Positions 1 to 29,380 of a stretch of DNA of 35,168 nt are shown in pieces. Each line of letters begins with the position of its first letter. Position 1 is the stretch's first letter. A model generated the notes under the pieces. The model did not search any database, had not been told where the DNA came from, and worked only from the letters and a program-made list of their open reading frames with translations. Source of the DNA: an uncultured Propionibacterium sp. (GTDB lineage: Bacteria; Actinomycetota; Actinomycetes; Propionibacteriales; Propionibacteriaceae); NCBI GenBank assembly GCA_937867175.1, contig CALMKG010000607.1, positions 1 to 35,168 on the forward strand, read 5' to 3'. The translations under genes and the position numbers were made by a program.

Positions 1-1297
1 CAGCCGGCTCCGCGAGCGTCAGCACGATCCGGCTGGAAGAGAGCCGGACGGAGAGCAGGCGAGGTGCAGGGGCCAGGCCGCGGAGCGCCGCATCTAGCTC
101 CTCGATCGGATGGGCGGTGACGGATCCCGACACCTGCACGGACCTCTCGACAGCGAGCAGCTCGTCTGGCGGTGGGGCGATGATCCTTCCGGGTCGGCGA
201 TAGCGGAGCTGGGTTCGCCGGTGCTGTCGCAGCACCAGCCAGAGCGACCCGGCCAGGAGCGCTCCAGCGCCGGCCAGTCCCGGGAGCAGCCAGGTCGGGA
301 TGGTCTCGTCCTCGGCGGAGTCGGCGAAAGCATGCTCGGGTTCGGGGTCGGATGCTTCAGGAGCGGGCGGAGTAGCTCCGTCGGTAGGTGGAGTCGCGTC
401 CTGCCGAGGCGGCTCCTGGACGTGCTTCGGCTTCTGCGCCTCGGCTGGATCCGGCTGTCCCGGGATCGTGAGCTTCCAGCCGGGGAGGATGAGATCCGGG
501 TCGGAGAGGTGGGCGCCGTTCGGCTGAGCAGTGCCGCGGGATGCTCGGAAGATCGACGGGTACGCGTCAGCGTCGCCCAGTTTGTCCTCTGCGATCTCGG
601 AGAGGGTGTCACCGGGCTGGACGACGTACGAGCCGCCCGAAGAGTCGTCCGCGACGGGGACCTTCAGCACGGTTCCGGGCAGGAGGAAGTCGGGACGCCC
701 GTCGAGGACGGCCTCGTTGAGGGCCACGAGCTCGACGTACCGCGTGCCGTCACCGAGTCGTTCTTCGGCGATCCTCCATAGGCTGTCGCCGCGCTTGACC
801 GTGTAGCGCTCGGTCTCCGGCTGGACCGTCTGCGCATGGTCTTCTGCTCGCGGCTCTGCCGGCGCATCCACGGCGACCGCTGCCTGCGGCTCGTCCGGCA
901 ACGGCGCGGCGACTGCAGCATGCGCCCGAGGCTGGGGCAGCACGGCGCTGACCGTGGGTACGGCGACGAACAGCAGCGCCGCGGCCGCGACCAAGCGGTC
1001 GGCGGCCAGCTGGGGAACCGCGAGACCGGGGAGGCGCGGCGTACGGATGCCGCGAGCCTGCGACACGATCGACGCGAGGAGCTGGCACGTAAAGACGGCC
1101 CACGCGATCCAGCAGACTGCGGTGATGACCTGCAAGGCGAGCGTGCCGTCGTCCTGCGACGTCAGCCTCGACCACGAGAACGCGCCTGGGTCGGGGATCG
1201 CGTCGATGGCGATGAGCACAACGGGTACGCCGACGACGAAGCAGACGAGCGTGAGTGTGGCCAGGAGGCCGCGCAGCCTGGAGTCGGTCTTGTTCAT
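1..1297 (-). CDS. LysM-domain membrane protein at the end of the Tad operon (3' end cut by window edge)
   Basis: The reading frame is open from an ATG at 1297 to the window edge, giving 432 codons without a stop, so the C-terminus is missing. Hydrophobic segments lie at about residues 12-30, 55-75 and 102-122. Two LysM peptidoglycan-binding repeats follow (about 164-215, with the motif YTVKRGDSLWRIA, and about 223-280, with YVVQPGDTLSEIA). Then come a Pro/Glu-rich linker, a fourth membrane segment at about 335-357 and a cytoplasmic-looking basic region. The start overlaps the upstream stop by four bases (ATGA), indicating translational coupling. Large LysM proteins, often with a C-terminal BTAD-type regulatory domain, are found at this place in actinobacterial Tad-like loci. 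The BTAD part would lie outside the window, so that is inference. The likely role is anchoring or regulating the apparatus at the cell wall. Confidence 0.85.
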   Translation of the reverse strand, partial: MNKTDSRLRGLLATLTLVCFVVGVPVVLIAIDAIPDPGAFSWSRLTSQDDGTLALQVITAVCWIAWAVFTCQLLASIVSQARGIRTPRLPGLAVPQLAADRLVAAAALLFVAVPTVSAVLPQPRAHAAVAAPLPDEPQAAVAVDAPAEPRAEDHAQTVQPETERYTVKRGDSLWRIAEERLGDGTRYVELVALNEAVLDGRPDFLLPGTVLKVPVADDSSGGSYVVQPGDTLSEIAEDKLGDADAYPSIFRASRGTAQPNGAHLSDPDLILPGWKLTIPGQPDPAEAQKPKHVQEPPRQDATPPTDGATPPAPEASDPEPEHAFADSAEDETIPTWLLPGLAGAGALLAGSLWLVLRQHRRTQLRYRRPGRIIAPPPDELLAVERSVQVSGSVTAHPIEELDAALRGLAPAPRLLSVRLSSSRIVLTLAEPA

Positions 1298-1713
1298 TGC
1301 TCGCTACCTCCGAGGGTGCGGACGAGTCGCGCGGTCGCGGTGCCGCTGACGTCGAGGCGGTTGATGCCGATGAGACCGAGGAACTGCGGGTCGTAGGAGT
1401 CCGTCACCGTCACGGTGATCGTGGTGCCGTCATTGATCGCCACAGTCCCGGTAACGCCCGCAGTGTCGAGATAGCGCTGGGCCGCGGCGCGGGCGGCAGC
1501 GGGGGAGATCGCCAGGTCATGACCCTGGATGGCGGAGCTTCCTTCGACCTCCTCGCCACCGGCCCGTGCGGCCTGCGCGGCGACGTCGTGGGCCCGCTCG
1601 TGCGCGTGGACCTGACCCCCGAGGTCGACCGCCAGCCCGACGAGGAAGATCATCACGAAGCTGGACAGGGCCAGCCACACGGTGATGGAGCCGCGCTCGT
1701 CCCGGCGGCTCAT
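1294..1713 (-). CDS. TadG/TadE-like pseudopilin-type membrane protein
   Basis: A protein of 139 aa starting MSRRDERGSITVWLALSSF. A short basic N-terminus is followed by one hydrophobic segment (about 10-30) and an exported domain of about 105 residues rich in Ala, Thr and Val. The start is chosen because its ATG overlaps the upstream stop by four bases (1710-1713); the longer open frame upstream is only the shadow of the neighbouring gene. The N-terminus matches the Tad pseudopilin layout with a Gly-Ser junction, but the glutamate expected at +5 is tryptophan here (RG/SITVW). It is therefore probably either not processed by a TadV-type peptidase or processed differently, as in TadG-like membrane-anchored proteins. 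It is the third of three consecutive TadE/G-like genes. Assignment to family is fairly secure; exact function is inferred. Confidence 0.82.
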   Translation of the reverse strand: MSRRDERGSITVWLALSSFVMIFLVGLAVDLGGQVHAHERAHDVAAQAARAGGEEVEGSSAIQGHDLAISPAAARAAAQRYLDTAGVTGTVAINDGTTITVTVTDSYDPQFLGLIGINRLDVSGTATARLVRTLGGSEQ

Positions 1714-2132
1714 CGTTCCCGCCAGGTGTCGATCGGGCTCGACATCGTCGCCCGCATGACCCGGGACCCGGGGGCGCCGGGAACAGCGAGATCGGACAGG
1801 TCGAGTCGGCAGGAAACAGTGACGTTCACCGAGCCGGGAACGCCCGGCTGCTTGTCGAAGTCGCTCGTGTCGACCGCAACGTCGATGGCAGAGCACCCGA
1901 TCTTCTGATTGGTGATGCTCTCCGTCGCTGCGGCGCGTGCATTCGCTCGAGCCACGTCGGCGTTGCGGGCGATTGATGCTGACCGGGCGGCGTCGGCGGC
2001 GGCGGACTGAAGCGCCTGATGGGTAGTCGCCGTACGGCCTCCGAAGATGACCAGACCGACGAAGAGCGCGAAGGCTGGTACGCCGATCGCCGCCTCGATC
2101 GCTGCTGAACCGCGTTCGTCCCGGCGGATCAC
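1710..2132 (-). CDS. TadE-like pseudopilin
   Basis: A protein of 140 aa read from a GTG at 2132 that overlaps the upstream TGA (GTGA, 2129-2132); no good ribosome site supports the longer ATG at 2189. The N-terminus, IRRDERGSAAIEAAIGVPAF, has a class III prepilin-like junction: Gly at -1, a small residue at +1 and Glu at +5, followed by a hydrophobic helix (about 12-30). The rest is an exported domain containing two cysteines that could form a disulphide (in IGCSAID and VSCRLD). TadE-type pseudopilins are minor components of Flp/Tad pili, cleaved by the TadV/CpaA peptidase and assembled in the envelope. It is embedded in the coupled run of tad genes. Confidence 0.85.
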   Translation of the reverse strand: MIRRDERGSAAIEAAIGVPAFALFVGLVIFGGRTATTHQALQSAAADAARSASIARNADVARANARAAATESITNQKIGCSAIDVAVDTSDFDKQPGVPGSVNVTVSCRLDLSDLAVPGAPGSRVMRATMSSPIDTWRER

Positions 2133-2545
2133 GGCGCGGTCACCTGCTCGACCGGCACGCTCGCGCTCTGCGTGATGCGGACCTTCCAACCGGGAATGAC
2201 GCTCAGGGAGAAGCCGCTGACCGTCACGGTGGCAGTGGTGGCGGTCCGGTTCGCGCTCGTCGAGGTCGCGGTGATGACGTCATCGCCGCCGGCTTCGTGG
2301 AGGAAGTCGTTGGCGGCGCCGACCCCGTCGGACTCCCGGCCCTGCTCGGCTCCGGCGGCTCTGGCGCCCTGCTGCGCAGCAGCGATTGCGACCGTCTTCG
2401 CGTGGTAGTAGAGCGCTGCCTGCATCCCGAGGAACATGACCGCGAACAGTGCGGGCAGCAGGACGACGAGCTCGATCGAGACCGAGCCCCGTTCGCCGCG
2501 CCGCTCGCGACGGCTACTTGATTTTGCCCGCTTGTGAGGTGACAT
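2129..2545 (-). CDS. TadE-like pseudopilin
   Basis: A protein of 138 aa: a basic N-terminus of about 19 residues, the junction ERGSVSIE (Gly at -1, Glu at +5), a transmembrane helix (about 22-45, VVLLPALFAVMFLGMQAALYY) and a secreted domain to the end. The long pre-helix heads and E+5 fit TadE family proteins. The start at 2545 lies 32 bases inside the preceding flp-like gene; no alternative in-frame start occurs before the conserved region, so the overlap appears real and implies coupled translation. The final codons overlap the next gene's GTG start. Predicted function is a minor pilin of the Tad apparatus. Confidence 0.85.
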   Translation of the reverse strand: MSPHKRAKSSSRRERRGERGSVSIELVVLLPALFAVMFLGMQAALYYHAKTVAIAAAQQGARAAGAEQGRESDGVGAANDFLHEAGGDDVITATSTSANRTATTATVTVSGFSLSVIPGWKVRITQSASVPVEQVTAP

Positions 2546-2708
2546 AGTTCGTGACAGCGAGGACCACGATGCCGACGATGCCGATGACTGCGACGGCCCA
2601 GAGGACGTGCTCCATCGTCACCGACCCGCGTTCACTGCGGCGGGATGCTCGCAGGTCGTCGTACTTGCTGAGTGCTGCGATCTGCAGCAGGACCAGTACC
2701 TTCAACAT
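2514..2708 (-). CDS. Small Flp-like pilin
   Basis: A protein of 64 aa with a strong ribosome-binding site: AGGAGG at 2715-2720 (minus strand), six bases before the ATG. The strongest Shine-Dalgarno noticed in this operon sits here, which fits a major subunit needed in quantity. An N-terminal leader of about 28 residues ends at ERG, followed by SVTMEHVLWAVAVIGIVGIV, with Glu at +5 and an uninterrupted hydrophobic helix. This is the layout of Flp pilins and class III leader peptides. The mature product would be only about 36 residues, a little short for Flp pilins but in their range. An unusual point is that the leader itself begins with a hydrophobic stretch (LKVLVLLQIAAL). It lies between tadC and the tadE genes, a usual place for such a gene. 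Confidence 0.75.
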   Translation of the reverse strand: MLKVLVLLQIAALSKYDDLRASRRSERGSVTMEHVLWAVAVIGIVGIVVLAVTNYVTSQAGKIK

Positions 2709-2714
2709 GGGTTT

Positions 2715-2720
2715 CCTCCT
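2715..2720 (-). promoter_or_regulatory. Strong ribosome-binding site of the flp-like gene
   Basis: The minus strand reads AGGAGG six bases before the ATG at 2708. Most neighbouring genes are started by stop/start overlap, so this consensus site marks independent and probably higher-level translation of the pilin within the polycistronic message. Confidence 0.7.
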
Positions 2721-2739
2721 GTGGATGTGTCCTTCCGTG

Positions 2740-3639
2740 TCACGAGTTCGTGAACATGCGAAGCAATGAGGGCGCGACGAGCAGCGCCATGAAGATCACG
2801 CCCAGTAGCGAGCCGGGCATCGACATGCGCTCGCCGACGGCGTTGGCCTGGGCGAGTTCGTCGTTGAGCATCGCCGTGCGCATGGCGGCGGAACGGGCGC
2901 GCAGGGTGGCGTACACGCCTGCTCCTTCCTCGCCCGAGAGGCGCATGATGTCGGCGAAGTCGTCGAGCTCAGGCAGTCCGAGCTCCTCTGCCAAGGTGTG
3001 CAGCGCGTCCCAGGGCGGCAGCCCCGACCACCGCGATCGGGTGAGCTCCTCGGACAGCCGCGTGAACACCCACGAGTCGCCGACCTCAGCCGCAGCCTCC
3101 ATCGCCTGTCGGTGGCCGATGCCGTTGTTCCGCTCCAAAGCGACCAGGTCGATGTAGGCGCCGAGCGCTCGGGCGAACTCGGTCCGTGCCTTCCTCGCGT
3201 CGTCGAGGGCGTTGTAGTTCGGGATGAAGAACATGACAGCGGCCAGCGCGAGCGATGCGACCGCCGGAAGCTGGAACGGGATGCTCAGCCCGAACGCGTT
3301 GAAGAGCGTGACGAGGACCGGCGGGATGACGAGGCCGAGCCCGGCGAACATCAGCTTCTCGCCGTAGAACTGCGCGACCGGTATCCGCAGCAGCGCGAGT
3401 TCGCGAGTCGGCGTACGAACCCAGAGACCAGGCGGCAAGACGCGCAGGCCCCACAGGCCGAGCCGCTCTTTGCTCGACCGCGCGGCGTCGGTGGCGGTCG
3501 AGCGCGGACGCGACGAGGAGACTCTCTCGAGTGCGTCGGCGAGGTCGGGCTCCGCGGGCAGAAGGCGGGCGACGAGAAGCACGAGGCCGAGGCCGACGAG
3601 GCCTCCCGCAAGGATCGCCAACTGCAGTCCGGTGATCAT
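2740..3639 (-). CDS. tadC: TadC-like inner-membrane platform protein (T2SSF domain)
   Basis: A protein of 299 aa. The start is the ATG at 3639, which overlaps the tadB stop by four bases; the open frame upstream to 4056 is an artefact over tadB. Hydrophobic segments are seen at about residues 3-25, two closely spaced ones at about 110-155 and one at the extreme C-terminus (GSLLGVIFMALLVAPSLLRMF). Between them is a cytoplasmic helical domain with the T2SSF/GspF-like signature region (LPELDDFADIMRLSGEEGAG). TadB and TadC pair to form the membrane platform on which the TadA ATPase acts. Start, size and position all agree with the family. Confidence 0.88.
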   Translation of the reverse strand: MITGLQLAILAGGLVGLGLVLLVARLLPAEPDLADALERVSSSRPRSTATDAARSSKERLGLWGLRVLPPGLWVRTPTRELALLRIPVAQFYGEKLMFAGLGLVIPPVLVTLFNAFGLSIPFQLPAVASLALAAVMFFIPNYNALDDARKARTEFARALGAYIDLVALERNNGIGHRQAMEAAAEVGDSWVFTRLSEELTRSRWSGLPPWDALHTLAEELGLPELDDFADIMRLSGEEGAGVYATLRARSAAMRTAMLNDELAQANAVGERMSMPGSLLGVIFMALLVAPSLLRMFTNS

Positions 3640-4493
3640 CGCGGCGCCTCCGCGACTGCGCGGGTCGCCAGGAAGCGGGGGAGCGGCTTGCCTGCGGCCA
3701 TCCGTCGCATCCAGATCAGGGTGGCGACGTACGCCGACAGGAGGAGCACGAGGAGGACTTGGCCGACCGGGGTGCGGTACGGCTCGACGTACGTCCCCGA
3801 CAGCGCAAGTACGACGAGCACGCTGGCGCTGATCAACGTGACCCACCGCGCGGTCGCTCGCGGCTTGGCCCGGTCTGCCTCGACCTGCCGCCGCGCGCGA
3901 ACGTCGGCGCCGACCGACTCGGCGAGTCCTTCGAGGACGCTCGCCAGCCCGGCTCCGCGTCGACGGGCGCCCAGGATCAGGTTGGCGGCGATCAGGTCGC
4001 CGGTCGCGTCGTCGAGCTCGTCGGCGAACGCGCGCAGAGCCTTCTCGGTGTCCCACCGTGCCCGCAGCCGGGTCACCAGTCGGTGGACGTCATCGGCGAT
4101 CGGCGCGGGCGTCGACCGCAGCGTGGCGACCAGCGCCTGCTCCAGGCCGATGCCGACAGTGAGGACTCCGGAGAGCGAACGCGTCCATTCCTCCATCGCT
4201 TCCAGACGCGCGATCTGCGTGGCGGCTGGCGGCGCGCTGAGCAGGACGGGCAGCCCGATGACGGCGACGGGCGCGATGACGAGCGCCAGGATCCAACCGG
4301 TGATGAGCCATCCGACGAGGCCCAGCGCGCCACCGACGAGAAGCAAGACGCGGGTGCGTCGGCTCGGTACGCGGCGCCGACTGGCGGCCTTGGCCTCCCG
4401 CGGCGGGATCGCGGTCGGGCGCACGCCGACGACCACCCCGAGGAGGCCCAGGGCGATCAGTCCACCCGCGAGTGCGGGAAGGATCGTGGTCAT
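3636..4493 (-). CDS. tadB: TadB-like inner-membrane platform protein (T2SSF domain)
   Basis: A protein of 285 aa. An N-terminal hydrophobic segment (ILPALAGGLIALGLLGVVV) is followed by a basic cytoplasmic stretch, two membrane segments (about 50-85, LLLVGGALGLVGWLITGWIL onward) and a T2SSF-type helical domain. The GspF-like part includes the line DLIAANLILGARRRGAGLAS and is followed by C-terminal membrane helices (about 215-255). The start ATG overlaps the tadA stop by four bases, and its own stop overlaps tadC. TadB forms the integral-membrane platform with TadC that couples ATP hydrolysis by TadA to pilin assembly or secretion. Confidence 0.88.
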   Translation of the reverse strand: MTTILPALAGGLIALGLLGVVVGVRPTAIPPREAKAASRRRVPSRRTRVLLLVGGALGLVGWLITGWILALVIAPVAVIGLPVLLSAPPAATQIARLEAMEEWTRSLSGVLTVGIGLEQALVATLRSTPAPIADDVHRLVTRLRARWDTEKALRAFADELDDATGDLIAANLILGARRRGAGLASVLEGLAESVGADVRARRQVEADRAKPRATARWVTLISASVLVVLALSGTYVEPYRTPVGQVLLVLLLSAYVATLIWMRRMAAGKPLPRFLATRAVAEAPR

Positions 4494-5965
4494 GTCCGGG
4501 CTCCCAACGGTTGACTCGCGAGGTACGCCGGGAGGTCGAAGCCGTGCTGCGCGAGCCGTCGGTACTCGTCCGGGAGGACGTCGGGGACTGCGATGCCGGT
4601 GGCATCGGCGCGGAACACGTGCGTGGTTGCGTAGCCGGGCTCCTTCTCGCCCGGGGCCAGCGCGATGACCTCGGCGACCCGCCTCGTCCTCTGAGCTCCG
4701 CCCGGCACGACCTTGGTCTCCAGGCTCAACTGGACGATCAGGTCGACGGTCGCCGCGAGCTTGCTGGTCGCGAGACCCTGCGTGACGTGCGGACCCGCCT
4801 CCATCGCGCAGGTCACGAGCTTGCGTACGGCGGCCACGGCGTCGGCCGCGTGAGTGGTGGAGATAGACCCCGTGCCGGACTCCATCGCCTTGATCATCGC
4901 CCAGATCTCCTTGCCACGGACCTCGCCGACGATCTGCCGCGAGAGGTTGAAGCGGAAGGAGTCGACGAGTGCCTCGTCGAGCGTGAACTCACCCGACTGG
5001 CGCCCGTCAGGACCACGTTCACCCGATCCGGGTCGGGCCTCCCAGGGGATGACCACCTTGTGCCGGCCGAGCTCGTGGAGGTGCAGTTCGTACTCGGTCT
5101 CGAAGGTGCCGATCGCCTCGAGCTCGTCGATCTCGGCGCAGAGGGCACGGACCAGCGTGGTCTTCCCGGCCCCCTGCGCCCCTGCGACCACGATCGAGCA
5201 CCGAGCACGCACCGCGGCTCTCAGGAACGAGGCGACGACGGGCGTCATCATGTCGCGCTTGACGAGGTCGTCCAGCGTGACCCGCATCAGCCGGTGCCGA
5301 CGGATCACGACCGAGGGTCGGGTGGTCACCCACGCCACGGCCGCCAGCCGCGAGCCGCCGTCCAGTCTCATGTGGAGGCTCGGTTGCGCCTCGGAGAACG
5401 ACCGCGCGTTGACCTCGCTGCGAGAGGCAAGGAAGACGAGGAAGTCGATCAACTCCTGATCGGAGTCGGCCACCGAGGGCCCGGGAACAAGCGTCCCGTC
5501 GATCAGCTCCAGCTGCACGTTGTCGTGGCCGACGATGACGATGTTCTCGATCCGGTCGTCATCCACCAACGGCTGGAGGCGGCCGAGGCGGAAGAGGGAG
5601 TCGAACACGGCCTGGGCGGTCGCCTGCTGCTTCTTGGGACTCCACGAACCGAGGCCGGCGTCGACATCCTCCGCCATCGCAGACTCGATGAGGTCCAGCA
5701 CGATCGAGCGGCCCAGCTCCTGCTGTGCCTCCTTGTCGAGATGGCCGCGGCCGGACTGCACGGCTTGGCTGAGCTGCTCGGAGGCCTGGGCGCGCAGTGT
5801 CGAGACGAGCGCCCAGTCGACATCGGAGGTGGCCGGGGGCGGTGACGCAACGGTCGCGTCGAGACTGCTCGGCACCTCGTGGGGGACGCCGTTGGACGTC
5901 TGGCTGAAGAGTGGCAGGCGCGTCAGGTCGCCGTACTCGTTCGCGAATCGGTAGGTCTCGGTCAT
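4490..5965 (-). CDS. tadA: TadA/CpaF-family secretion ATPase
   Basis: A protein of 491 aa, starting at the ATG at 5965, which overlaps the upstream stop. The N-terminal domain (about 50-240) precedes the RecA-like ATPase core. The Walker A motif GAQGAGKTT has its lysine at residue 268, an acidic box lies around 289-292 and the family hallmark VGEVRGKE is at 347-353 (Walker B region). The His box STTHAA has its histidine at 372. These are the catalytic signatures of type II/IV secretion traffic ATPases of the TadA/CpaF group, hexameric cytoplasmic motors that power Flp/Tad pilus assembly; VirB11 relatives serve conjugation. Everything needed for activity seems present. The flanking tadZ, tadB and tadC genes confirm the assignment. 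Confidence 0.95.
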   Translation of the reverse strand: MTETYRFANEYGDLTRLPLFSQTSNGVPHEVPSSLDATVASPPPATSDVDWALVSTLRAQASEQLSQAVQSGRGHLDKEAQQELGRSIVLDLIESAMAEDVDAGLGSWSPKKQQATAQAVFDSLFRLGRLQPLVDDDRIENIVIVGHDNVQLELIDGTLVPGPSVADSDQELIDFLVFLASRSEVNARSFSEAQPSLHMRLDGGSRLAAVAWVTTRPSVVIRRHRLMRVTLDDLVKRDMMTPVVASFLRAAVRARCSIVVAGAQGAGKTTLVRALCAEIDELEAIGTFETEYELHLHELGRHKVVIPWEARPGSGERGPDGRQSGEFTLDEALVDSFRFNLSRQIVGEVRGKEIWAMIKAMESGTGSISTTHAADAVAAVRKLVTCAMEAGPHVTQGLATSKLAATVDLIVQLSLETKVVPGGAQRTRRVAEVIALAPGEKEPGYATTHVFRADATGIAVPDVLPDEYRRLAQHGFDLPAYLASQPLGART

Positions 5966-6729
5966 CGCCGCGCCTCCTCGACGAGGGCGAACCGACCACG
6001 GGCGATGTGCGCCTGGACGGACTGGACCGCGGCCTGGAGCGCACGGACATACGAGCCCGTCTCGAAGTGCTTCGGAGGCGCCGCGCCACGGTGATACACG
6101 GCCGCGGCGGCCGGATCGTCCGGCAGGTCCGCGACGACGGGCATGCCGAGAACCTTGGCGATCTCGGAGGCCCGGTAGGGCTGGCCCTCGGCGACGAGAA
6201 GCAAGCCGGGGTGACGCCATCCGGCGGCGGGTTGCCGGACGCTCTCCGCCCACGAACGAGCCGCCGAGATCGCGGGCAGAGTGGCTCTGGTGACCAGGAG
6301 AGCCGCGTCGGCGGCGTCCAGCAACGGGGTCGGCGAGCCCATGAGGCCGAGCCTCCCGGCGTCGACGATGACGTCCTGTCCGTTGTCATCCAGATCGCGG
6401 AGTGCGGCCGCCAACGGCTCCCAGACGTCACGCAGCGCCGTGGCCTGAGCGTGCGACCGGATGCCGGCGACAAGGGAGACGTTCGGGCTCAGCGGCCGTA
6501 CGACCTCCCGCAGCGCGTCCGCCGCGCCGAGGGGTGAGAGGGCGAGCTCGATCAACCCGGTGTCGTACGGCGTCGTGCCGCGGAGGAATCCGGCGAGGAC
6601 GCCGGATCCGCCGGTCGGGTCGGCCTCGAGGAGAAGGACGGGCCGTGGCCAGCTGAACGCCATGCCCACTGCGGTGGTGGTGACGCCGGGCGAACCGGAG
6701 GCCGATGTCAGGCACACGATCGCCATCAC
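5962..6729 (-). CDS. TadZ/CpaE-like ParA-family protein with degenerate Walker A
   Basis: A protein of 254-255 aa. Both the GTG at 6729 (GTGA overlap with the upstream stop) and the immediately following ATG at 6726 are possible starts. The fold signature is ParA/MinD-like: IVCLTSASGSPGVTTTA at the N-terminus, VLLLEADPTGG at about 31-41 and DVIVDAGRLG at about 118-127. The Walker A loop has lost both lysines (SGSPGVTTT where KGGxGKTT is expected), so ATP hydrolysis is doubtful. TadZ/CpaE proteins are known as atypical ParA relatives that place the Tad machine in the cell. The gene sits directly before tadA, the usual order. Confidence 0.85.
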   Translation of the reverse strand: MMAIVCLTSASGSPGVTTTAVGMAFSWPRPVLLLEADPTGGSGVLAGFLRGTTPYDTGLIELALSPLGAADALREVVRPLSPNVSLVAGIRSHAQATALRDVWEPLAAALRDLDDNGQDVIVDAGRLGLMGSPTPLLDAADAALLVTRATLPAISAARSWAESVRQPAAGWRHPGLLLVAEGQPYRASEIAKVLGMPVVADLPDDPAAAAVYHRGAAPPKHFETGSYVRALQAAVQSVQAHIARGRFALVEEARR

Positions 6730-7403
6730 TGGGCTCCCGAGTCGAGGATCAGCGCGACGTTGCCGGTCGCAGCGCGTGCCGCGAGGACGCTCGCGTCGGC
6801 GTACGGCACCAGGACGTTGACGACGGTGTTGCCAGTGGTCTCGTCGATCGCTGTGTCGACGACCTCGGCGGCCGTGAACTGTGGCGCGCCGGTTGGGGCA
6901 TCGCCGTTGGCAGCAGGGGTGACGATGATGCGGACCTTGTCACCGCCGTGCATGGGGAGCGCTGGGACCTGGGCAGGGGTCAGCGAGATGCCGACGATCG
7001 ACTGGCCCTCCGGTGGCAGCGGTGCATCGGTCGTCGACTCGGTCGTGATCAGTCCGCCGGCAGAGATGTCGAGCGCGGCGCGCTGGCCGACGACCTCGTC
7101 GTACGCCGAAGCAGGGAGCGGTTCCAGAGCCGGGTCCCCGCTGATCCGGATGCGCCGGATGTCGTCGGCAGTGATGACCTCGCCTCGATGGATCGTGCTC
7201 GTCGCAGCGAGGACCTCCTCGGTGCTGGTCGTCGCGTTCCATGCCCAGGCACCGAGCAGGCAGCCGAGGGCGGTGACGACGACGGCGGCTACGACGAGTC
7301 CGGGCCGCCTGCGGAGCTTGGGCGGGGGAGTGACCGGCGGGCCGGCGTCGGGCGCGGTGCGGTGGGGGCCGGGCTTCCGGTCCTCTCGGGCAGTCGTGGT
7401 CAC
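6726..7403 (-). CDS. SAF-domain protein, CpaB/RcpC-like
   Basis: A protein of 225 aa from a GTG at 7403, preceded by GGAGGGA at a suitable distance. A Pro-rich cytoplasmic head (1-33) precedes a single membrane segment (about 35-57). The SAF domain follows at about 62-125 (STIHRGEVITADDIRRIRI, typical of the SAF beta-clip fold), then a second beta-rich domain with GGDKVRIIV and VVNVLVPYADA. Such proteins act on the outer face of the membrane in Flp/Tad assembly; in diderms CpaB/RcpC works with the secretin, which a monoderm would lack. It is the first gene of the coupled core run, 26 bases downstream of the PKD-like gene. Confidence 0.85.
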   Translation of the reverse strand: MTTTAREDRKPGPHRTAPDAGPPVTPPPKLRRRPGLVVAAVVVTALGCLLGAWAWNATTSTEEVLAATSTIHRGEVITADDIRRIRISGDPALEPLPASAYDEVVGQRAALDISAGGLITTESTTDAPLPPEGQSIVGISLTPAQVPALPMHGGDKVRIIVTPAANGDAPTGAPQFTAAEVVDTAIDETTGNTVVNVLVPYADASVLAARAATGNVALILDSGAQ

Positions 7404-7429
7404 TTCATCCCTCCCCGCGCAGGTGCTCG

Positions 7430-8392
7430 TCAGTTCACGAGCAGCTGCGCTTCGCCGATCCGGATCTCGGTCGAGCGGTTGAGGCCGTCGAGGCGGATCG
7501 TCCCGGTCTGGCCCGCGCCCGACCAGGTGATGACCCAGCTCGAGGTCGCGGTGACGGTGTACGCATCATCCGCCTTCCCCGCGCTCGACTTCTTGTAGGT
7601 GTGGCCGCAGTCGGGGGAGTCCTTCCGCCCGAACTCCGGCTTGTACGGCGTGCCCGCCGTGTCGCAGACGACCTCGGTTCCGTCGCCCATGTCCCAGGTG
7701 ATGTGCAGGACCTTGGCCGTCGCGGTGATCGTGATGCCGCCCGCCGACGCACTCTCGGTGATCGGGCCGAAGGTCTGGCTGCTCGGCGCCTTCGCCCACA
7801 TCCACACGGGCATGCCGACGAGGCCGACGCTGTCGGGACCGGGTTCGGGAGCGATGCCGATATCGATCGCCCTGAGGTGCATGCTCTCGATGGCGATCTG
7901 GGCGACCTCTCTCGGTGTCGGTCCCGTGCCGGAGTTCGGCGGCGGATCCTGCGTCCAGATCGTGATGAGCAGCCCGGTCTGCGGCTGGTCGCAGTAGTAG
8001 ACGGCGCCGTCACCGGGCTCGTGGCCCTGCCACGACGGGTCACCCGCGGGCGGCTGGGGTTGCACCAGCGAGATGTAGCAGTGGTAGGCGTTCGACCAGT
8101 AGGCGCCGTTCTTCGTGCACGGGACCGGCCCAGGCGGTGGATTCGTGACGCCCTGGCTGGTGCCGTCCCAATAGCAGGCTGCGCCGCTGCCTGTGTCCTC
8201 TGGCCCGTCGCCGCCCGGTGTTCCCGGTGTGCCGGGATCGCCCGGGACGTGGATCCAGATCAGGCACTCGCCCGTCGCCGGATCAGTCTGACCGCAGACC
8301 GTGCCGTCGGCGTACGACGTCCCGGACGCAAGGGTAGTAAGGCTGGCCGTGGCGAGGGTAGTCAGCAGGAGGCGAATCAGGAGGCTGCGCAT
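7430..8392 (-). CDS. Secreted PKD-like protein of the Tad operon
   Basis: A protein of 320 aa. The start is placed at the ATG at 8392, where a classic Sec signal peptide begins (MRSLLIRLLLTTLATASL, likely cut after the Ala at SYA); it overlaps the preceding gene by 16 bases. The mature part has a Gly/Pro-rich collagen-like stretch (PGDPGTPGTPGGDGP), several cysteine pairs and aromatic-rich motifs. The C-terminal half (about 190-320) contains ITWDMGDGTEVVCD, close to the WDFGDG signature of PKD beta-sandwich domains. Proteins of this form recur in actinobacterial Tad-like loci; the function is unknown, possibly a surface-exposed tip or adhesive component. The PKD assignment is by motif only. 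Confidence 0.75.
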   Translation of the reverse strand: MRSLLIRLLLTTLATASLTTLASGTSYADGTVCGQTDPATGECLIWIHVPGDPGTPGTPGGDGPEDTGSGAACYWDGTSQGVTNPPPGPVPCTKNGAYWSNAYHCYISLVQPQPPAGDPSWQGHEPGDGAVYYCDQPQTGLLITIWTQDPPPNSGTGPTPREVAQIAIESMHLRAIDIGIAPEPGPDSVGLVGMPVWMWAKAPSSQTFGPITESASAGGITITATAKVLHITWDMGDGTEVVCDTAGTPYKPEFGRKDSPDCGHTYKKSSAGKADDAYTVTATSSWVITWSGAGQTGTIRLDGLNRSTEIRIGEAQLLVN

Positions 8393-9003
8393 GGCGTCTG
8401 CTTGAGGTCCTGGCCCGTCGCCACGCGCCAGCGGCCGGTGGGGTCGGCGCCGTACTCGTAGTTCGCGACGGTGTAACGCGTCCACCCGGTGTCCGGGCGG
8501 TTGGGGGAGACGATCGACTCGCCGCTCTTGTCGAGCACGTCGACCTTGGTGACGTCCCAGCAGACGTCGATGACGACCGTGGGCACCTTGCCGGCGTCCG
8601 GATCGGAGTTGTCGAGGGTCACCGACTGGACCTTCAGCTCGCTGATGGCCGTGGTGCCGGTCTGGCGCTGGCCCTGATCGCGCTGCCGCTGTACGAGGGT
8701 CTGCACCGCGTTGAGCTGCGCGCCGATCGCGACGGTCTCGAGCTCCTTGAGATCGCTGGAGGGATCGGCCCGGAGCTCGTCGAGGACGGAGTAGTAGTCG
8801 GTCATCGCAGCCGTCGCATTCGCGGCTGCGGCGTCGTTCGGGGACGTCGGCGACGGGCTGGTCGTCGGCTCAGTCGACCCTGTCGGTGACGACGTGGCTG
8901 GCGTCGTCGGCGGGGGATCCGCGTCGTTTTCGGCACACGCCGACACTGCGGCCAACAGAAGTGTGCCGGTCGCCAGGAAGGTCAACCCGAGTCGATTCTT
9001 CAT
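8377..9003 (-). CDS. Lipoprotein, first gene of the Tad operon
   Basis: A protein of 208 aa from the ATG at 9003; the frame continues upstream, but the lipoprotein signal starts here. Residues 1-23 form a lipobox signal peptide (FLATGTLLLAAVSAC, lipid-modified Cys at 23). A Thr/Ser/Pro-rich spacer (about 27-58) follows, then a globular domain with a helix around 60-115 and a C-terminal beta-rich part with CWDVTKVDVLDKSGE and WTRYTVANYEYG. The overall shape resembles small actinobacterial envelope lipoproteins with an NTF2-like domain, but I cannot assign a family firmly. It heads the minus-strand operon, so its promoter should lie in the 9004-9380 region shared with the relaxase gene. Its coupling to the PKD-like gene suggests both act outside the membrane. 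Confidence 0.78.
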   Translation of the reverse strand: MKNRLGLTFLATGTLLLAAVSACAENDADPPPTTPATSSPTGSTEPTTSPSPTSPNDAAAANATAAMTDYYSVLDELRADPSSDLKELETVAIGAQLNAVQTLVQRQRDQGQRQTGTTAISELKVQSVTLDNSDPDAGKVPTVVIDVCWDVTKVDVLDKSGESIVSPNRPDTGWTRYTVANYEYGADPTGRWRVATGQDLKQTPCAAS

Positions 9004-9180
9004 GGAGATGGTCCTGCTTCCTCTCGCCCAAAGGCGATGAGGCGCGACGACGCCCCACGGGCGGTGCGTGCATCGTCTGAACCTCATCGTAAGCCTGATA
9101 CACGAATCCGGACCCGACGTCTTTTACCCGGGTCGCTTCAACGGGTCAGGTGCTCGTCTCTGCCCAATCCCGTCGTCCCA

Positions 9181-9310
9181 CCTCAGCCCTCCGTCCTCTC
9201 GTCCCTCCTTCAGTCCCTCTCAGTCACCTCGTCCTCTCACCTGCCCATCACCTCCTGCGCCCTCGCCCCGTCCTGCTTCCGCCCCTCCTCGGCTACCTCC
9301 TCCTCGCCTT
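9181..9310 (+). other. Polypyrimidine tract upstream of the relaxase gene
   Basis: By hand count only 24 of these 130 bases on the plus strand are purines, about 82% C+T, with runs such as CCTCCGTCCTCTCGTCCCTCC. Neighbouring coding DNA shows no such strand asymmetry. The transcript from this strand would be nearly unstructured, and the complementary strand is purine-rich. It could be a transcript leader, part of an origin of transfer or a triplex-prone element; the sequence alone does not decide. Confidence 0.6.
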
Positions 9311-9321
9311 CACACGGTGTG
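9311..9321. repeat. Perfect palindrome CACAC-G-GTGTG before the relaxase
   Basis: Five-base arms (9311-9315 and 9317-9321) around a single G, directly after the polypyrimidine tract and 60 bases before the relaxase start. It may be an operator or part of a transfer origin; the function is inferred from position only. Confidence 0.45.
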
Positions 9322-9380
9322 CAGATCGAGGGGGCTGTGGAGAAGGACGCGCACCTGAGCGCTGTGGGACGGAAACGGCC

Positions 9381-12300
9381 GTGACGGTCTCGATGCGCCG
9401 GATGTCCGCGGGCAGCGGCTATCAGTACCTGCTGCGCAGCGTCGCGGCCGGCGACGGCAACCGCGTCCTGTCGACGCCGCTGACCCGCTACTACTCCGAT
9501 GTCGGTACACCGCCTGGCCGCTGGCTCGGATCTGGTGTCGGTGCCTTCGGCGCCGGCCAGCTTCGCCCGGGAATGCACGTGAGCGAGGAGCAGCTCGCGC
9601 TGCTTGTCGGTATGGGCCGAGACCCGATCACGGGAGAGCAACTCGGCCGCGCGTATCCGTCGTACAAGAGGCTCTCGGACCGCATCGACGAGCGCGTCGC
9701 CGCTCTCGATCCGGAGATGACTCAGGAGGACTGCGCCGCCGAGGCGACACGGATCGAGGCCGAGGAGACGGCGGCCGGGGTGCGGCGAGCGGTGGCAGGG
9801 TTCGACCTCACGTTCAGCGTCCCGAAGTCGGTCTCCGTGCTCTGGGGTGTGGCCGACGCCGTCACCCAGGAGCGGATCGTCGCCGCCCATCATGTGGCGG
9901 TCGCAGACGTCATCGCGCTGTTCGAACGCGAGGTCGCCGCTACCCGTGCGGGCATCTCCGATGCTGACGGCGCCGTCGCCCAGGTCGACGTGGCGGGTGT
10001 CGCGGCTGTCGCCTACGACCACTTCGACTCCCGCGCCGGGGACCCGCAGCTTCACACGCACGTCGTCGTCGCCAACAAGGTCTTCACCGTCATGGACGGG
10101 CGCTGGCGAAGCCTTGACGGACGCCCGGTCTTCGCCTCGCGCACCGGCTTGTCTGCGCATTACGACGCACTCCTGGCGGACCGGCTATCGCACGACCTCG
10201 GCATCGAGTGGGAGCTGCGGCAGCGCGGGCCCGACCGGAATCCCCGATGGGAGATCGCCGGCGTCACTGACGACCTGATCACCGAGTTCTCCAGCCGCAC
10301 CCGCGAGATCGAGCTCAAGAAGGACGAGCTCATCGCGGAGTACGTCGCTCGCCACGGGCGGAGGCCCTCGGCGAGGACGATCGTCGAGCTCCGGGCGCAA
10401 GCCACTCTCGCCACGCGCCCGCCGAAGGAGGTCCGGTCGCTCGCCGACCTCACCGCGGGCTGGCGGCAACGGGCCGCCAAGCGGTTGGGCGCCGAGCCCA
10501 CGGGATGGTCGCGGTCGGTGATCGGCCGAGGCGGCGACCTCTTGACAGCGGAGGACGTGCCACTGGCTGCCATCGAGGCGATCGGCGCCGAGGTGGTCGC
10601 GGCTGTCTCAGTGAAGCGGGCTGTGTGGACGCACTGGAACCTGATGGCCGAGGCGGCGAAGCAGACGACGGATCTGAGGTTCGCGACGACCGAAGACCGC
10701 GAGGCCGTCCTCGGCCTCGTCGTGGACGCGGCGCAGGCACGCTCCGTCGTGCTGACGCCGCCGGAGCTCGCCGTCAGCCCGGCTCGGTTCCAGCGCGAGG
10801 ACGGCACGAGCCGGTTCCGCCCACGGCACAGCGAGAAGTACTCCTCGATCGCAGTGCTCGACGCCGAGGCGCGATTGTTGGCTCGCGCCGAGAAGATGAC
10901 CGCACCAGCGGTGTCAGCCGGGATCGCGCGGCGAGCAGGTGGCCGTGGCACGGTTTCGCTGACCGATCAGCAGCGGTGCGCGGTGGAGAGCGTCTGTCGC
11001 TCAGGGCGCCAGGTCGACCTTCTCGTCGGGCCCGCCGGGGCTGGCAAGACCACCACGATGAGAGCACTCCGCGCGGCATGGATAGGCGAGCATGGGCGGG
11101 GGAGTGTCGTCGGTCTGGCGCCGTCCGCCGCCGCAGCCCAGGCGCTGGCCGACGATCTCGGCGTGGCGTGCGAGAACACGTCGAAGTGGCTCCACGAGTA
11201 CGACCACGGCCGGACCGAACTCCGCCGAGGTCAACTGGTGATCGTCGACGAGGCGACTCTCGCCGACACGGTGACGCTGGACCGACTCACGGGGATCGCG
11301 GCAGCCGCCTGCGCCAAGGTGCTGTTGGTCGGTGACCCGCACCAGCTTCAGTCCGTCGACGCCGGCGGAGCCTTCGCACTCCTCGTGGACCGGCGTGCGG
11401 ACGTCCCGGCGCTGAATGAGATCCACCGGTTCGCCAACGAGTGGGAGAAGGAGGCCTCGCTCGCGCTGAGCCGCGGCGATGTCCAGGTCATCGCGACGTA
11501 CGGCCGCTACAAGCGGATCCGCGAGGGCCTCACCGACGAGATGGTCGATGCGGCGTACGGCGCATGGAGGGCCGACTGCGCTGCGGGGCTGGCCAGCATC
11601 CTCGTGACGGAGTCGGCTCGTGATGTCCGCGCGCTCAACGAACGCGCGCGGGCAGAGCGGCTGCTCCTGGACGGCGCAGTCGACCACCGCGAGGTCGACC
11701 TCGTCGACGGCTGCCGAGCCTCGGTGGGCGACGTCGTCATCACGCGCCAGAACGACCGCCGCATCCGGACCATGCGCGGAGGGTGGGTGAAGAACGGCGA
11801 CCGCTGGCTCGCCACCGACATTCGGCGTGACGGCTCACTCCTGGTCAAACGCCTCAACGCCCGCGGTGGGCGAACGGTCCTGCCGCCGGAGTACGTCGCA
11901 GAGCACGTCGACCTCGGCTACGCCGTCACCGCGCATCGCGCTCAAGGCGTCACCGTCGACACGGCGCACGTCGTCGTGACCGCATCCACGACCCGAGAGA
12001 ACCTCTACGTCTCCATGACCCGCGGCCGCGAATCCAACATCGCGTACGTCGCCCTCGACCAGCCCGACGACAGCCACTCCACACCGGAGGCGGACGACGT
12101 GACGGCCCGGAGCGTTCTGTACGGCGTCCTCCGGCACAGCGGCGCCGACCTCTCGGCCACGCAGACCATCGAAGCTGAGTACGAACTCCACGGAGGCATC
12201 GACCGCCTCGCGGCCGAACTCGAGACGATTGCCGCCGACGCCCAGCACGACCGCTTCGTCGACCTGCTCAGCCGCTCAGGGCTGACCGCCGAGCAGCACG

Positions 12301-12905
12301 CCGCGGTCGTCGAGTCGACAGCCTTCGGCCCGCTCACGGCGGCACTACGACGCGCCGAGGCATACCACCACGACCTCGAACGTCTTCTGCCTCGGGTCGT
12401 CGGGCAGCACGGTCTCGACGACGCCGATGACATCGCAGCGGTCCTCCGCTATCGAATCGAGAAGCTCGCAGCGGCCTCGCCGCGCGGCTGCCGTCTCCGT
12501 CCGCGGCTCATCGCCGGCCTGATCCCCGAGCCGCTCGGCCCGATGTCAGCCGAGGACCGACAGGCGATCGACCAGCGGAAGGAGCTGATCGAGTCGCGTG
12601 CACGGGCGCTCCTGGATATCGGCATCGGAGGCGGCGCCGCTTGGACGAACCGGTTCGGCGAACTTCCGCAGGATCTCACCCAGCGCGAGCAATGGGCACG
12701 TGCCGCGACGTCGGTTGCCGCCTACCGGGATCGCTACAAGATCACCAGCGACCTGCCCCTGGCCGGAGGCGCGGCCGACGACGCTCAGCGCGCAGACCGC
12801 CGGCGCGCCCAGATCGCGCTGAGGACGGCAGTCGCGCTGTCCAGCGCCAGCCGCAGTGAGTCCCGCGCCGTTCGAGCCGACCTCCGCGCCGTCCTGAGTC
12901 CATAG
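9381..12905 (+). CDS. traA: MobF-family relaxase-helicase (TraA/TrwC-like)
   Basis: A protein of 1174 aa from a GTG at 9381; the family's N-terminus (VSMRRMSAGSGYQYLLRS) begins here. The TrwC relaxase domain spans about 1-330: catalytic tyrosine pair Y37-Y38 in LTRYYSD, conserved GRWLGSG, and the metal-binding triad H214, H225 and H227 (DPQLHTHVVVANKV). A RecD-like helicase follows: Walker A GPAGAGKTT with K556, Walker B VIVDEATLAD with D623-E624, LVGDPHQLQSVDAGG, and the C-terminal motifs TAHRAQGVTVD and SMTRGRESN. The last 270 residues are helical and undescribed. The enzyme would nick the transfer origin, attach to the 5' end and unwind the strand for conjugation. It marks the region as a mobilisable or conjugative element. 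It is divergent from the Tad operon and followed by two small genes. All catalytic residues are intact. Confidence 0.93.
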   Translation: MTVSMRRMSAGSGYQYLLRSVAAGDGNRVLSTPLTRYYSDVGTPPGRWLGSGVGAFGAGQLRPGMHVSEEQLALLVGMGRDPITGEQLGRAYPSYKRLSDRIDERVAALDPEMTQEDCAAEATRIEAEETAAGVRRAVAGFDLTFSVPKSVSVLWGVADAVTQERIVAAHHVAVADVIALFEREVAATRAGISDADGAVAQVDVAGVAAVAYDHFDSRAGDPQLHTHVVVANKVFTVMDGRWRSLDGRPVFASRTGLSAHYDALLADRLSHDLGIEWELRQRGPDRNPRWEIAGVTDDLITEFSSRTREIELKKDELIAEYVARHGRRPSARTIVELRAQATLATRPPKEVRSLADLTAGWRQRAAKRLGAEPTGWSRSVIGRGGDLLTAEDVPLAAIEAIGAEVVAAVSVKRAVWTHWNLMAEAAKQTTDLRFATTEDREAVLGLVVDAAQARSVVLTPPELAVSPARFQREDGTSRFRPRHSEKYSSIAVLDAEARLLARAEKMTAPAVSAGIARRAGGRGTVSLTDQQRCAVESVCRSGRQVDLLVGPAGAGKTTTMRALRAAWIGEHGRGSVVGLAPSAAAAQALADDLGVACENTSKWLHEYDHGRTELRRGQLVIVDEATLADTVTLDRLTGIAAAACAKVLLVGDPHQLQSVDAGGAFALLVDRRADVPALNEIHRFANEWEKEASLALSRGDVQVIATYGRYKRIREGLTDEMVDAAYGAWRADCAAGLASILVTESARDVRALNERARAERLLLDGAVDHREVDLVDGCRASVGDVVITRQNDRRIRTMRGGWVKNGDRWLATDIRRDGSLLVKRLNARGGRTVLPPEYVAEHVDLGYAVTAHRAQGVTVDTAHVVVTASTTRENLYVSMTRGRESNIAYVALDQPDDSHSTPEADDVTARSVLYGVLRHSGADLSATQTIEAEYELHGGIDRLAAELETIAADAQHDRFVDLLSRSGLTAEQHAAVVESTAFGPLTAALRRAEAYHHDLERLLPRVVGQHGLDDADDIAAVLRYRIEKLAAASPRGCRLRPRLIAGLIPEPLGPMSAEDRQAIDQRKELIESRARALLDIGIGGGAAWTNRFGELPQDLTQREQWARAATSVAAYRDRYKITSDLPLAGGAADDAQRADRRRAQIALRTAVALSSASRSESRAVRADLRAVLSP

Positions 12906-12926
12906 CCCCTGCCCGCGCCGCGTTCT

Positions 12927-13007: not shown

Positions 13008-13367
13008 ATGATCATGCTGCTAGCACTCCCTGTCATCGCCGCCGTGGCACTCGTGCACCGGTACCTGGCGCTCTACGCCCGGTCGAACGTCCTGATCCGC
13101 CGGGTGCGGGCCACGGCGCCTGCCCTGAGCTGGGCCGCAGCGATGTTGGGCGTGGCATCAAGTCTGATCGTCGCGCTGAAGGCGGTTTCGGACGCCGTGG
13201 CGGCCGGAGCGCCCGGCTGGCTGAACCTCGTCGTAATCGTCCTTGCTTGGGACGCGATCAAGTTCGGATGTCTCGCAATCGCAGTCCTGTTCCGCTGGAT
13301 CGGCCTCGCCTCCCGGAGAACTCTCGGACACCGGAGTCGCCGACTCGCTGCCGGTTCCTACAGTTGA
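13008..13367 (+). CDS. Small membrane protein of unknown function
   Basis: A protein of 119 aa, ATG at 13008 with AAGGGCG upstream as a reasonable ribosome site. Three hydrophobic segments are seen: about 2-21 (MLLALPVIAAVALVHRYLAL), about 40-66 (ALSWAAAMLGVASSLIVALKAV) and about 72-98 (LNLVVIVLAWDAIKFGCLAIAVLF), with a basic C-terminal tail. I do not recognise the family. It sits between the relaxase gene and another small gene that begins three bases later, so the two are probably co-transcribed and belong to the transfer module. Actinobacterial conjugative elements commonly encode small membrane proteins of this kind near their transfer genes. Confidence 0.7.
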   Translation: MIMLLALPVIAAVALVHRYLALYARSNVLIRRVRATAPALSWAAAMLGVASSLIVALKAVSDAVAAGAPGWLNLVVIVLAWDAIKFGCLAIAVLFRWIGLASRRTLGHRSRRLAAGSYS

Positions 13368-13370
13368 CCT

Positions 13371-20900: not shown

Positions 20901-21578
20901 TCCGCGGCGGAGATCGCTGATCTGCTGCGCGGGGACGCGGTGCTTCGCGAGCTGGTCGAGGTCCTGACCGGTGACGCTGAGCCGGACCTCGCCAAGGTGC
21001 TGGGCTCGCTGGTGGCCGGCGAGGCGGTGCCATACCTCGCCGCTCACCGCTACAAGCCGTCTGGACTGGAGAAGTTCCGCGCCTGGCAACAGGTGTGGGA
21101 CCTGCAGCGGCGGGAGGACGCGGGGGAGAAGGTCGACATCCCGGTGCCCCCGAAGTACGCCACGGCCGACTTCAAGAAGGTCGAGTACTGGAAGGCCCGC
21201 GGCAAGCTCGACGTACCGAAGGAGCGGTTCGTCCTGTATCCGGACCTGCGCCGCGAGGGGGACAACACCGTCGTGCTCGGCTGGGCGGGCTGGGACCACA
21301 AGGACCAGGCGTTGGCGTTGGCGCGTGAGTTCCCGACCCAGGAGGCGCTCGGCGCCAGCGACGATCTGCTGACCCAGATGGTCGCCGGGCTGGTCGAGCT
21401 CGAGCCATGGGTGCACCAGTGGCACTCCGAGATGGATGCCTCGTTCGGTGTCAGTCCGGCCGATGCCATCACCGGCGTCATCGACCAGCAGCTCGGCCGC
21501 CTCGAGACGACCCGTGATGCGGTCACCGCTTGGACGCCGCCAGCGGCCGTCCGCGGCCGGCGTCCCAAGAACGCGTAG
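17970..21578 (+). CDS. pglX: PglX, adenine-specific DNA methyltransferase of type 2 BREX
   Basis: A protein of 1202 aa from a GTG at 17970, overlapping the pglW stop (GTGA) with GAAGGAAA upstream. The N-terminal helical region is followed by the SAM-binding motif LIDPTCGSGHFLLGAF (D243) and the amino-methyltransferase catalytic motif NPPY (375-378). The variable target-recognition and C-terminal regions follow. PglX methylates adenine in a non-palindromic site to mark self DNA, and it is needed for BREX defence. The segment from about 19110 to 20700 has lower GC and more A/T-ending codons than the rest (see separate entry), which suggests an exchanged specificity domain. The frame is unbroken through it, so the gene appears functional. 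It ends 15 bases before pglY. Confidence 0.95.
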   Translation: MIDSAALLKDLKAQLKLVQADLRLRADDKADRWGARLQEEYAEARRRERTGHSWVVWRDNEVDQAAVAWLIAMTFVRFCEDNDLLAGARLDGNPAPVGWIAGPGDRTARAEENLTAYFREHPTHNRRDWLRQAFTVLAAQPAGKAVVDTSHNPVWVADISAERATALIDFWRTTDADGNLVHDFTDDALDTRFLGDLYQDLSDHARKTYALLQTPVFVEEFILDQTLTPALAEFGLEGIKLIDPTCGSGHFLLGAFQRLVDQWQAEAPALDPKERVRRAMDSIHGVDLNPFAVAIARFRLTVAGLLAMGERSLVGVPNLGFHLAIGDSLLGELGGAPEGFQFEDEESETYLYDTEDLKEYAGILKPGQYHVVVGNPPYITVKDPALNALYRSIYRTAFKEYQLTAPFMELLFRLAVRGEPGKPAGFVGQITGNGFMKQDFGKKVIEDLFGGFHEGNPVDLALVVNTEGAHIPGHGTPTVIIVGRRRRPFGDSVRAVLHLRGEPKEPDDPARGKVWTEIVDHYATPGFVGNYIAVADVARGILSTYPWHLSDDTRAAVMEQMISASSRKLSNAVDVFGYTGQTNADGAFLAPASALARRNVEPDLCRYFLTGEDVRDYVARPGKASLFPYRGAKLVDIASAPGLLRWLWPVRTITWARATFSKRTYKQEGRTWWEWHQVSPDRMGTWAITYPRVATVQHFAFVQFDPAFNREASFLQLPPGSGEGEHHELLGLLNSSLSTFWLKQVCHNKGNGGIGGGIGDEDWEPRYEFTGTKLEQFPLPAALPHERGRALDAYAHALEAARPREVVDNWVSRGSGDLRTALMVGETAFRQARKAMIFEQEELDWETYQLYGLVDENLTYTSGEMNELALGERAFEVALARRVEAGEEETAWFARHRSTPITEVPTQWPPSYRAVVERRLDLIDSDPTIRLLERPEFKRRWLVTPWDAQLKEALETAILDRLDAPELWRDGQGPVTRSAAEIADLLRGDAVLRELVEVLTGDAEPDLAKVLGSLVAGEAVPYLAAHRYKPSGLEKFRAWQQVWDLQRREDAGEKVDIPVPPKYATADFKKVEYWKARGKLDVPKERFVLYPDLRREGDNTVVLGWAGWDHKDQALALAREFPTQEALGASDDLLTQMVAGLVELEPWVHQWHSEMDASFGVSPADAITGVIDQQLGRLETTRDAVTAWTPPAAVRGRRPKNA
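19110..20700 (+). other. Compositionally atypical central segment of pglX (likely specificity region)
   Basis: Hand counts of single 60-base lines give about 48% GC at 19141, 58% at 19321 and 52% at 20041, against about 68% at 18901. Codons such as TTT, ATT, AAT and ACT, almost absent elsewhere, are frequent. The change begins right after the NPPY motif and covers the region expected to contact the target sequence. Boundaries are approximate. Confidence 0.6.
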
Positions 21579-21593
21579 GGAAGGATCGGAACC

Positions 21594-29376: not shown

Positions 29377-29380
29377 GCGA

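Follow-up and report, generated by a model that had tools for sequence, protein, structure and literature searches.

The 35,168-bp stretch of DNA analysed here (the window) is, in our judgement, probably one end of a T4SS-type ICE in which a Tad operon builds a contact pilus that is added to a complete DNA exporter. The window is the entire contig C607 of a 4.3-Mb source genome assembled in 607 contigs (completeness 93%, contamination 7.8%). The first-pass annotation had described a 12-gene Tad/Flp operon (1–9003, minus strand) divergent from a full-length MobF relaxase gene (9402–12905, plus strand), and was right in both content and coordinates. For comparison, a TadA alignment was scanned against one genome per species (84,980 species), which gave 80 loci. 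Gene calling and clustering revealed a nearly constant twelve-gene order across these loci. In the window, the twelve genes occupy the minus strand between 9003 and the left contig end, with their ends overlapping or almost touching. Outward from the relaxase gene they are:

8377..9003, minus strand: lipoprotein (from the sequence; lipobox VSAC by eye), in 63 of the 80 loci
7430..8392, minus strand: secreted 320-residue protein with PKD-like motif MGDGT...CGHTY, kept in 68 of the 80 loci
6726..7403, minus strand: SAF-domain RcpC/CpaB-like protein (PF08666, E = 2.3e-9)
5962..6726, minus strand: TadZ/CpaE-like MinD-type ATPase (TIGR03815, E = 2.5e-10, under cut-off)
4490..5965, minus strand: TadA/CpaF pilus motor ATPase, 491 residues (T2SSE PF00437, E = 2.7e-22)
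3636..4493, minus strand: TadB platform protein (T2SSF PF00482, E = 1.9e-10)
2740..3639, minus strand: TadC platform protein (homologues at the equivalent place in related loci; clusters with TadB)
2514..2708, minus strand: Flp major prepilin, 64 residues (from the sequence), with a G/XXXXE processing site (G/SVTMEHVLW), kept in 74 of the 80 loci
2129..2545, minus strand: TadE-like pseudopilin 1 (PF07811, E = 3.5e-11; G/SVSIE motif by eye)
1710..2132, minus strand: TadE-like pseudopilin 2 (G/SAAIE processing motif by eye), family in 70 of the 80 loci
1294..1713, minus strand: TadG-like minor pilin or pseudopilin (PF13400 Tad, E = 3.8e-10)
2..1297, minus strand: LysM-domain membrane protein, N-terminal 432 residues, gene cut by the contig end (LysM PF01476, E = 5.7e-16)

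The core of a Tad/Flp (type IVc) system is thus present in one operon: a TadA ATPase with an intact Walker A motif (GAQGAGKTT, by eye) and two T2SSF-type platform genes, tadB and tadC. The pilin component consists of Flp and the TadE pseudopilins with their G/XXXXE site, while TadG has no Glu at position 5 of the processing site. TadA also matches TIGR03819 (E = 8.7e-35) and VirB11 (E = 3.8e-26), both under the family cut-offs. No prepilin peptidase (TadV) was identified within the operon, and this enzyme would therefore have to be supplied by the host. Its location outside the tad operon is usual in actinobacteria (PMC4322843). Between the window and three relatives, dN/dS is 0.09–0.38 for nine genes of the operon and 0.15–0.37 for MobF, with synonymous sites partly saturated in both cases. 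Judged from these ratios, the Tad module is evolving under purifying selection.

The secreted protein encoded at 7430..8392 is a candidate for a pilus-associated surface protein. On pCPRO01, the annotation of the gene at the corresponding position reads PKD domain protein. The structure model of the protein is weak (pLDDT 61, alignment rows from genome loci only); a PDB structure search with this model gave no match below E = 0.001, and we do not claim a fold.

On the other side of the intergenic region, three features were found:

9312..9331, plus strand: non-coding motif ACACGGTGTGCAGATCGAGG, 90 bp upstream of MobF, conserved among MobF upstream regions
9402..12905, plus strand: MOBF (TrwC/TraI-like) relaxase-helicase, full length (TrwC PF08751, E = 4.4e-90; AAA_30 PF13604, E = 6.3e-59)
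13008..13367, plus strand: small membrane protein downstream of MobF, in 29 of the 80 loci

The product of 9402..12905 is a MOBF relaxase according to its TrwC domain, its HUH motif (QLHTH) and N-terminal Tyr region, both intact by eye, and its SF1 helicase. The upstream motif has the consensus ACRC-N4-6-GCA-N4-GAGG. Of the 74 upstream regions that are distinct, among 78 distinct contexts in all sequence examined, 59 contain it, at 54–135 bp from MobF. It is found in Tad-carrying and Tad-less elements as well as on plasmid pYJNG. Being common to elements with and without Tad, the motif therefore travels with the relaxase, and the region around ACACGGTGTGCAGATCGAGG is a candidate for oriT/nic.

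The remainder of the window contains cargo and a recombination gene pair:

13801..31447, plus strand: BREX type 2 cargo, consisting of PglW, PglX, PglY/BrxC, PglZ, BrxD and BrxHI (PADLOC models, best E per gene 0 to 8.1e-194)
31466..33270, minus strand: cargo, a GmrSD-N protein and an FRG-domain protein (PADLOC PDC-S15)
33347..34893, minus strand: tyrosine integrase and HTH (excisionase-like) gene (PF00589, E = 3.3e-22; HTH_17, E = 5e-7)

All six genes of the BREX type 2 set are present (PADLOC). The integrase/HTH pair may be part of the window's element or of a neighbouring one. No tRNA genes were found within the window.

The neighbourhood of Tad and MobF is not accidental, because it recurs from both directions of search. 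A divergent MobF gene lies upstream of Tad in 38 of the 80 TadA loci, on the opposite strand in every case. The reverse search, starting from MobF in 98 Nocardioides genomes, gave 32 close matches, three of them at contig ends. The Tad operon was beside and divergent from MobF in 25 of the 29 informative loci. The four MobF loci without Tad (G178, one copy in G180, G222 and a truncated copy in G141) indicate that some copies lack the module. The pair is repeated on two other contigs of the source genome, C553 and C304, and the same arrangement is present on pYJNG. In most copies a single intergenic region separates relaxase and Tad operon. The pairing that the first-pass annotation had noticed is thus real, and so is its assignment of both parts to one element. 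An end of the element between Tad and MobF (9003 to 9381), which it had named as counter-evidence, is ruled out by retention of the pair across genomes and in the MobF tree.

No VirB4/TraG-type gene had been seen in the window. This is true of C607, where profile searches with PF02534 and PF12846 found no place, but it describes the contig rather than the element: VirB4 and VirD4 are absent because the contig breaks off within the LysM gene. The source genome as a whole has 14 VirD4-type places. A search with the full LysM protein, which is about 1004–1040 residues long, located the C-terminal remainder (residues 415–1003) on contig C432. C432 ends in the same 55 bases with which the window begins, exactly at both contig ends, and the LysM reading frame is continuous across the join. 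The overlap is consistent with a shared assembly k-mer, and on this sequence basis we regard the join as firm. Beyond LysM, C432 carries a gene for a 372-residue protein and then the beginning of a gene for a primase-polymerase. The 55 bases with which C432 starts recur once, inside the primase-polymerase gene on contig C376, where the assembly branches. The join between C432 and C376 is therefore at a branch point; it appears likely, with other paths possible. C376 encodes the primase-polymerase, a short protein, a 282-residue protein, a ParB-like protein, a VirB8-position protein, an NlpC/P60 protein, two DUF6112 proteins, VirB6/TrbL, an SCO6880 protein and VirB4. These genes have 91–93% nucleotide identity to Nocardioides albidus and Nocardioides caeni, and the Tad and MobF region of the window is at an equal level.

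The complete element is found in relatives. We established gene-by-gene layouts for five named Nocardioides genomes: N. caeni, PD653-B2, N. phosphati, N. albidus and N. aequoreus. Each of the five layouts continues beyond the Tad operon, without a change of strand, into the primase-polymerase, the ParB-like protein and the T4SS genes up to VirB4. VirD4 is contiguous beyond VirB4 in all four with sequence that far (N. caeni, PD653-B2, N. phosphati and N. albidus), an SSB-like protein comes after VirD4 in two of these four, and integrase-like genes lie past VirD4 in N. caeni and PD653-B2. The backbone of the complete relatives consists of MobF, the Tad operon, primase-polymerase, ParB-like protein, VirB8-position protein, NlpC/P60 cell-wall hydrolase, two DUF6112 membrane proteins, VirB6/TrbL, SCO6880-family protein, VirB4, ArdC-like protein, VirD4, SSB-like protein and integrase. 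The terms ‘primase-polymerase’ and ‘VirB8-position’ are labels from sequence and place, as the profile libraries gave no name. Profile matches for the transfer genes include NCBIfam CD1110 for VirB4 (E = 2e-15, under cut-off), SCO6880 (E = 2e-139) and DUF6112 (E = 4e-29), SCO6881 (E = 3e-28) and TrbL (E = 1e-4), the last two both under cut-off, and for VirD4 TraG-D_C (E = 1.5e-26) and T4SS-DNA_transf (E = 2e-20). No VirB11 gene was recognised in the T4SS of this ICE lineage.

The order from Tad to VirB4 is repeated contiguously on contig C457 of the source genome itself. In 19 loci, a comparison of coordinates placed VirB4 (at least 84% identity) on the strand of TadA and 17–35 kb downstream of it, with a shared contig confirmed by length for five and assumed from coordinates for the rest. 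Among the marks of a T4SS-type ICE, VirB4 is thus contiguous with Tad in the relatives and on C457, and is linked to the window's copy via C432 and C376, the latter join being the branch point. VirD4 and the integrase are present in the relatives. The leftward extension proposed in the first-pass annotation reached VirB4, with the branch-point join; VirD4, the SSB-like protein and the integrase lie in the relatives' complete copies. The idea that Tad replaces missing transfer genes finds no support, since a VirB4-type operon lies directly beyond Tad, both in the relatives and via C432 and C376. A complete type IV transfer operon elsewhere in the element, which it had itself named as counter-evidence, is present in the relatives and, with the caveat of the contig joins, in the source genome.

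Nine MobF loci from the source genome's taxonomic family were sampled as sister elements. All have the same backbone from the primase-polymerase on, up to VirB4 in eight of them; the examined stretch of the ninth (G075) was shorter, and VirB4 lies farther along. The Tad operon between MobF and primase-polymerase is absent in all nine, and variable genes are found there instead. Tad is dispensable for this type of transfer machine, because the Tad-less sister ICEs keep the same relaxase and secretion system. In a MobF tree (quick method), all Tad-carrying copies form one clade with full support, and a single change separates the labelled Tad-carrying from the Tad-less rows; as the Tad-carrying rows were sampled through TadA, this clade may include unseen Tad-less members. 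The tree is consistent with a single gain of the Tad module in this ICE lineage. The operon occupies the gap in which Tad-less sisters hold variable cargo, as plain cargo would, an observation that speaks against a contact role.

By what is known of these families, relaxase, coupling protein and VirB4/VirB6 channel would be enough to process and export DNA. MobF would nick the element near the relaxase gene, and VirD4 would hand the strand with its bound relaxase over to the VirB4/VirB6 channel for export. The Tad operon may make an Flp pilus that extends and retracts, with the LysM protein as its anchor in the cell wall and with the secreted PKD-like protein and the lipoprotein as further parts. 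Such a pilus could catch or hold recipients so that the channel can engage. Flp with its processing site, the LysM protein and the two conserved exported proteins would fit this contact role, and Tad probably helps donors to hold recipients rather than to export DNA. Of the two functions that the first-pass annotation had suggested for Tad, mating-pair contact thus fits best, by analogy with plasmid R64. More tentatively, and with slightly less than even confidence, we consider Tad a working conjugation part: a type IVc pilus that was acquired a single time, sits between the relaxase and the transfer operon and would pull recipients to a monoderm T4SS, and whose TadA, a VirB11 relative, might act on the T4SS.

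The main rival to the contact role is that Tad is accessory cargo which aids the host in adhesion, biofilm formation or colonisation, has no part in conjugation and became fixed by host benefit and hitch-hiking. Known Tad pili are mostly adhesins, the same gap holds variable genes in the Tad-less sister ICEs, and BREX and further defence genes are among the window's cargo. However, other cargo varies from copy to copy, whereas Tad is kept in 25 of the 29 MobF loci and in the whole MobF clade, in a constant position divergent from MobF and in line with the transfer operon. Tad operons are also near VirB4-type genes on further replicons, namely pYJNG, pXCEL01 and a plasmid of M. paraoxydans. We thus consider the cargo explanation rather unlikely, though it is the strongest of the alternatives. 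On pAL1 and pFiD188, the annotation within 15 kb of Tad includes no gene named VirB4 or conjugal transfer, and closeness of Tad and T4SS is therefore not universal on plasmids.

The first-pass annotation had raised, as its stronger reading, a hybrid apparatus of relaxase and Tad in which the Tad machine itself exports DNA. The relationship of TadA to VirB11 traffic ATPases and the common intergenic region of relaxase and Tad operon in most copies agree with this, but we know of no case of DNA export by a Tad machine. VirB4, VirB6 and VirD4 in relatives and the extended flank, together with sister ICEs that have relaxase and T4SS without Tad, make such a hybrid highly improbable, and rule out Tad as the sole DNA exporter. 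Scarcely more probable is a Tad pilus for DNA uptake, giving the host transformation as a second route of gene transfer: what Tad is linked to in these elements is a relaxase gene and an operon for conjugation. The precedent is Micrococcus luteus, where transformation needs both tad clusters (PMC4322843), but these operons are chromosomal.

The contact pilus proposed here has counterparts in diderm hosts, where the type IVb pili of the IncI1 plasmid R64 (thin pilus) and of PAPI-1 are experimentally proven to serve mating contact. Both likewise combine a complete conjugation T4SS and a separate type IV-family pilus on one element. They differ in pilus type, host and proof: the present pilus is of the Tad type (IVc), belongs to monoderm actinobacteria and is predicted from its genes. 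T4SS-type actinobacterial ICEs with MOBF relaxase, VirB4 and VirD4 are represented by 17 elements in the survey by Ghinet et al. 2011 (PMC3218068), and share with the present elements the integrase, the TrwC-domain relaxase, the VirD4-like coupling protein and the VirB4-like ATPase. The text of that survey does not contain TadA and uses ‘pilus’ once, about VirB4, whereas the present lineage has a whole Tad operon fixed. Linear plasmids of Cutibacterium acnes also unite a tad locus with transfer genes (VirB4, TcpC, FtsK-like) on a single replicon, and are conjugative by their authors' suggestion (PMC5696575, PMC3666418). A pilin was detected on the surface, and Tad was assigned to adhesion and colonisation (PMC5696575). 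Unlike in the present elements, a linked MobF arrangement is undescribed for these plasmids, and the word ‘relaxase’ is absent from PMC5696575. The tad-1 and tad-2 loci of M. luteus, which are chromosomal and used in DNA uptake, differ in the same respect, as the part of PMC4322843 considered describes no link to a relaxase. Our search of the literature on Tad with ICEs, relaxases or mating pairs, which covered few subscription journals, found no paper describing the arrangement. MOBF T4SS-type ICEs are already known, while the fixation of a Tad operon in a lineage of this kind is apparently undescribed, as far as this incomplete coverage reaches.

Little is known about contact between donor and recipient in actinobacteria, which are monoderm. 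An ICE lineage with a pilus and its nearest sister lineage without one, sharing relaxase and exporter, form a natural comparison, and whether a Tad pilus aids conjugation is now directly testable in culturable soil strains. Our results suggest that, where Tad loci occur on mobile DNA of actinobacteria, they should not automatically be read as factors for colonisation only.

Two explanations are offered for the high similarity to Nocardioides: mis-binning of the contig, or a recent move of the element between families. The source genome appears to belong to a family other than that of Nocardioides, because TadA identity to the window is at most 68% in sampled members of the family (source genome itself excluded) as against 96–98% in the named Nocardioides.

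The genome of the window (4.3 Mb, estimated contamination 7.8%) carries ten MobF genes, about seven close TadA genes and VirD4 at fourteen places. The contigs concerned are C607 (the window itself), C553, C304, C457, C505, C303, C334, C294, C383 and C352. These numbers therefore point either to many related ICEs or to several strains mixed in one assembly. On contig C383, remnants of SAF and TadZ (3222–3942 of locus L031) were seen close to a divergent MobF, which looks like a Tad module in decay. The MobF protein at this locus is very long (1975 aa).

In complete relatives, integrase-like genes are located at the VirD4 end, whereas in the window they are found at the relaxase end:

33347–34893, integrase and HTH gene

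This pair may belong to a second element in tandem, or to a separate island. The cargo adjoining the relaxase in the window comprises all the genes of a type 2 BREX (Pgl) system for defence against phages (13801–31447), followed by genes for GmrSD-like and FRG-domain proteins.

At the position of the cell-wall hydrolase (loci L191–L208), the Tad-less sister ICEs have a gene of about 540 aa, in contrast to the 370-aa NlpC/P60 protein of the Tad-carrying ICEs. In one sister (genome G094), a C-terminal M23-like region was recognized by eye.

Plasmid pYJNG contains two differing Tad operons (17556–30990 of locus L043 and 9710–24411 of locus L042). One includes a prepilin peptidase and is close to a conjugal-transfer/ATP-binding/M23 gene set, the other is divergent from MobF. 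Tad operons closely resembling the Nocardioides ones were also found within bins labelled Mycobacterium and Acidimicrobiales (L088 and L081), apparently because mobile contigs were mis-binned.
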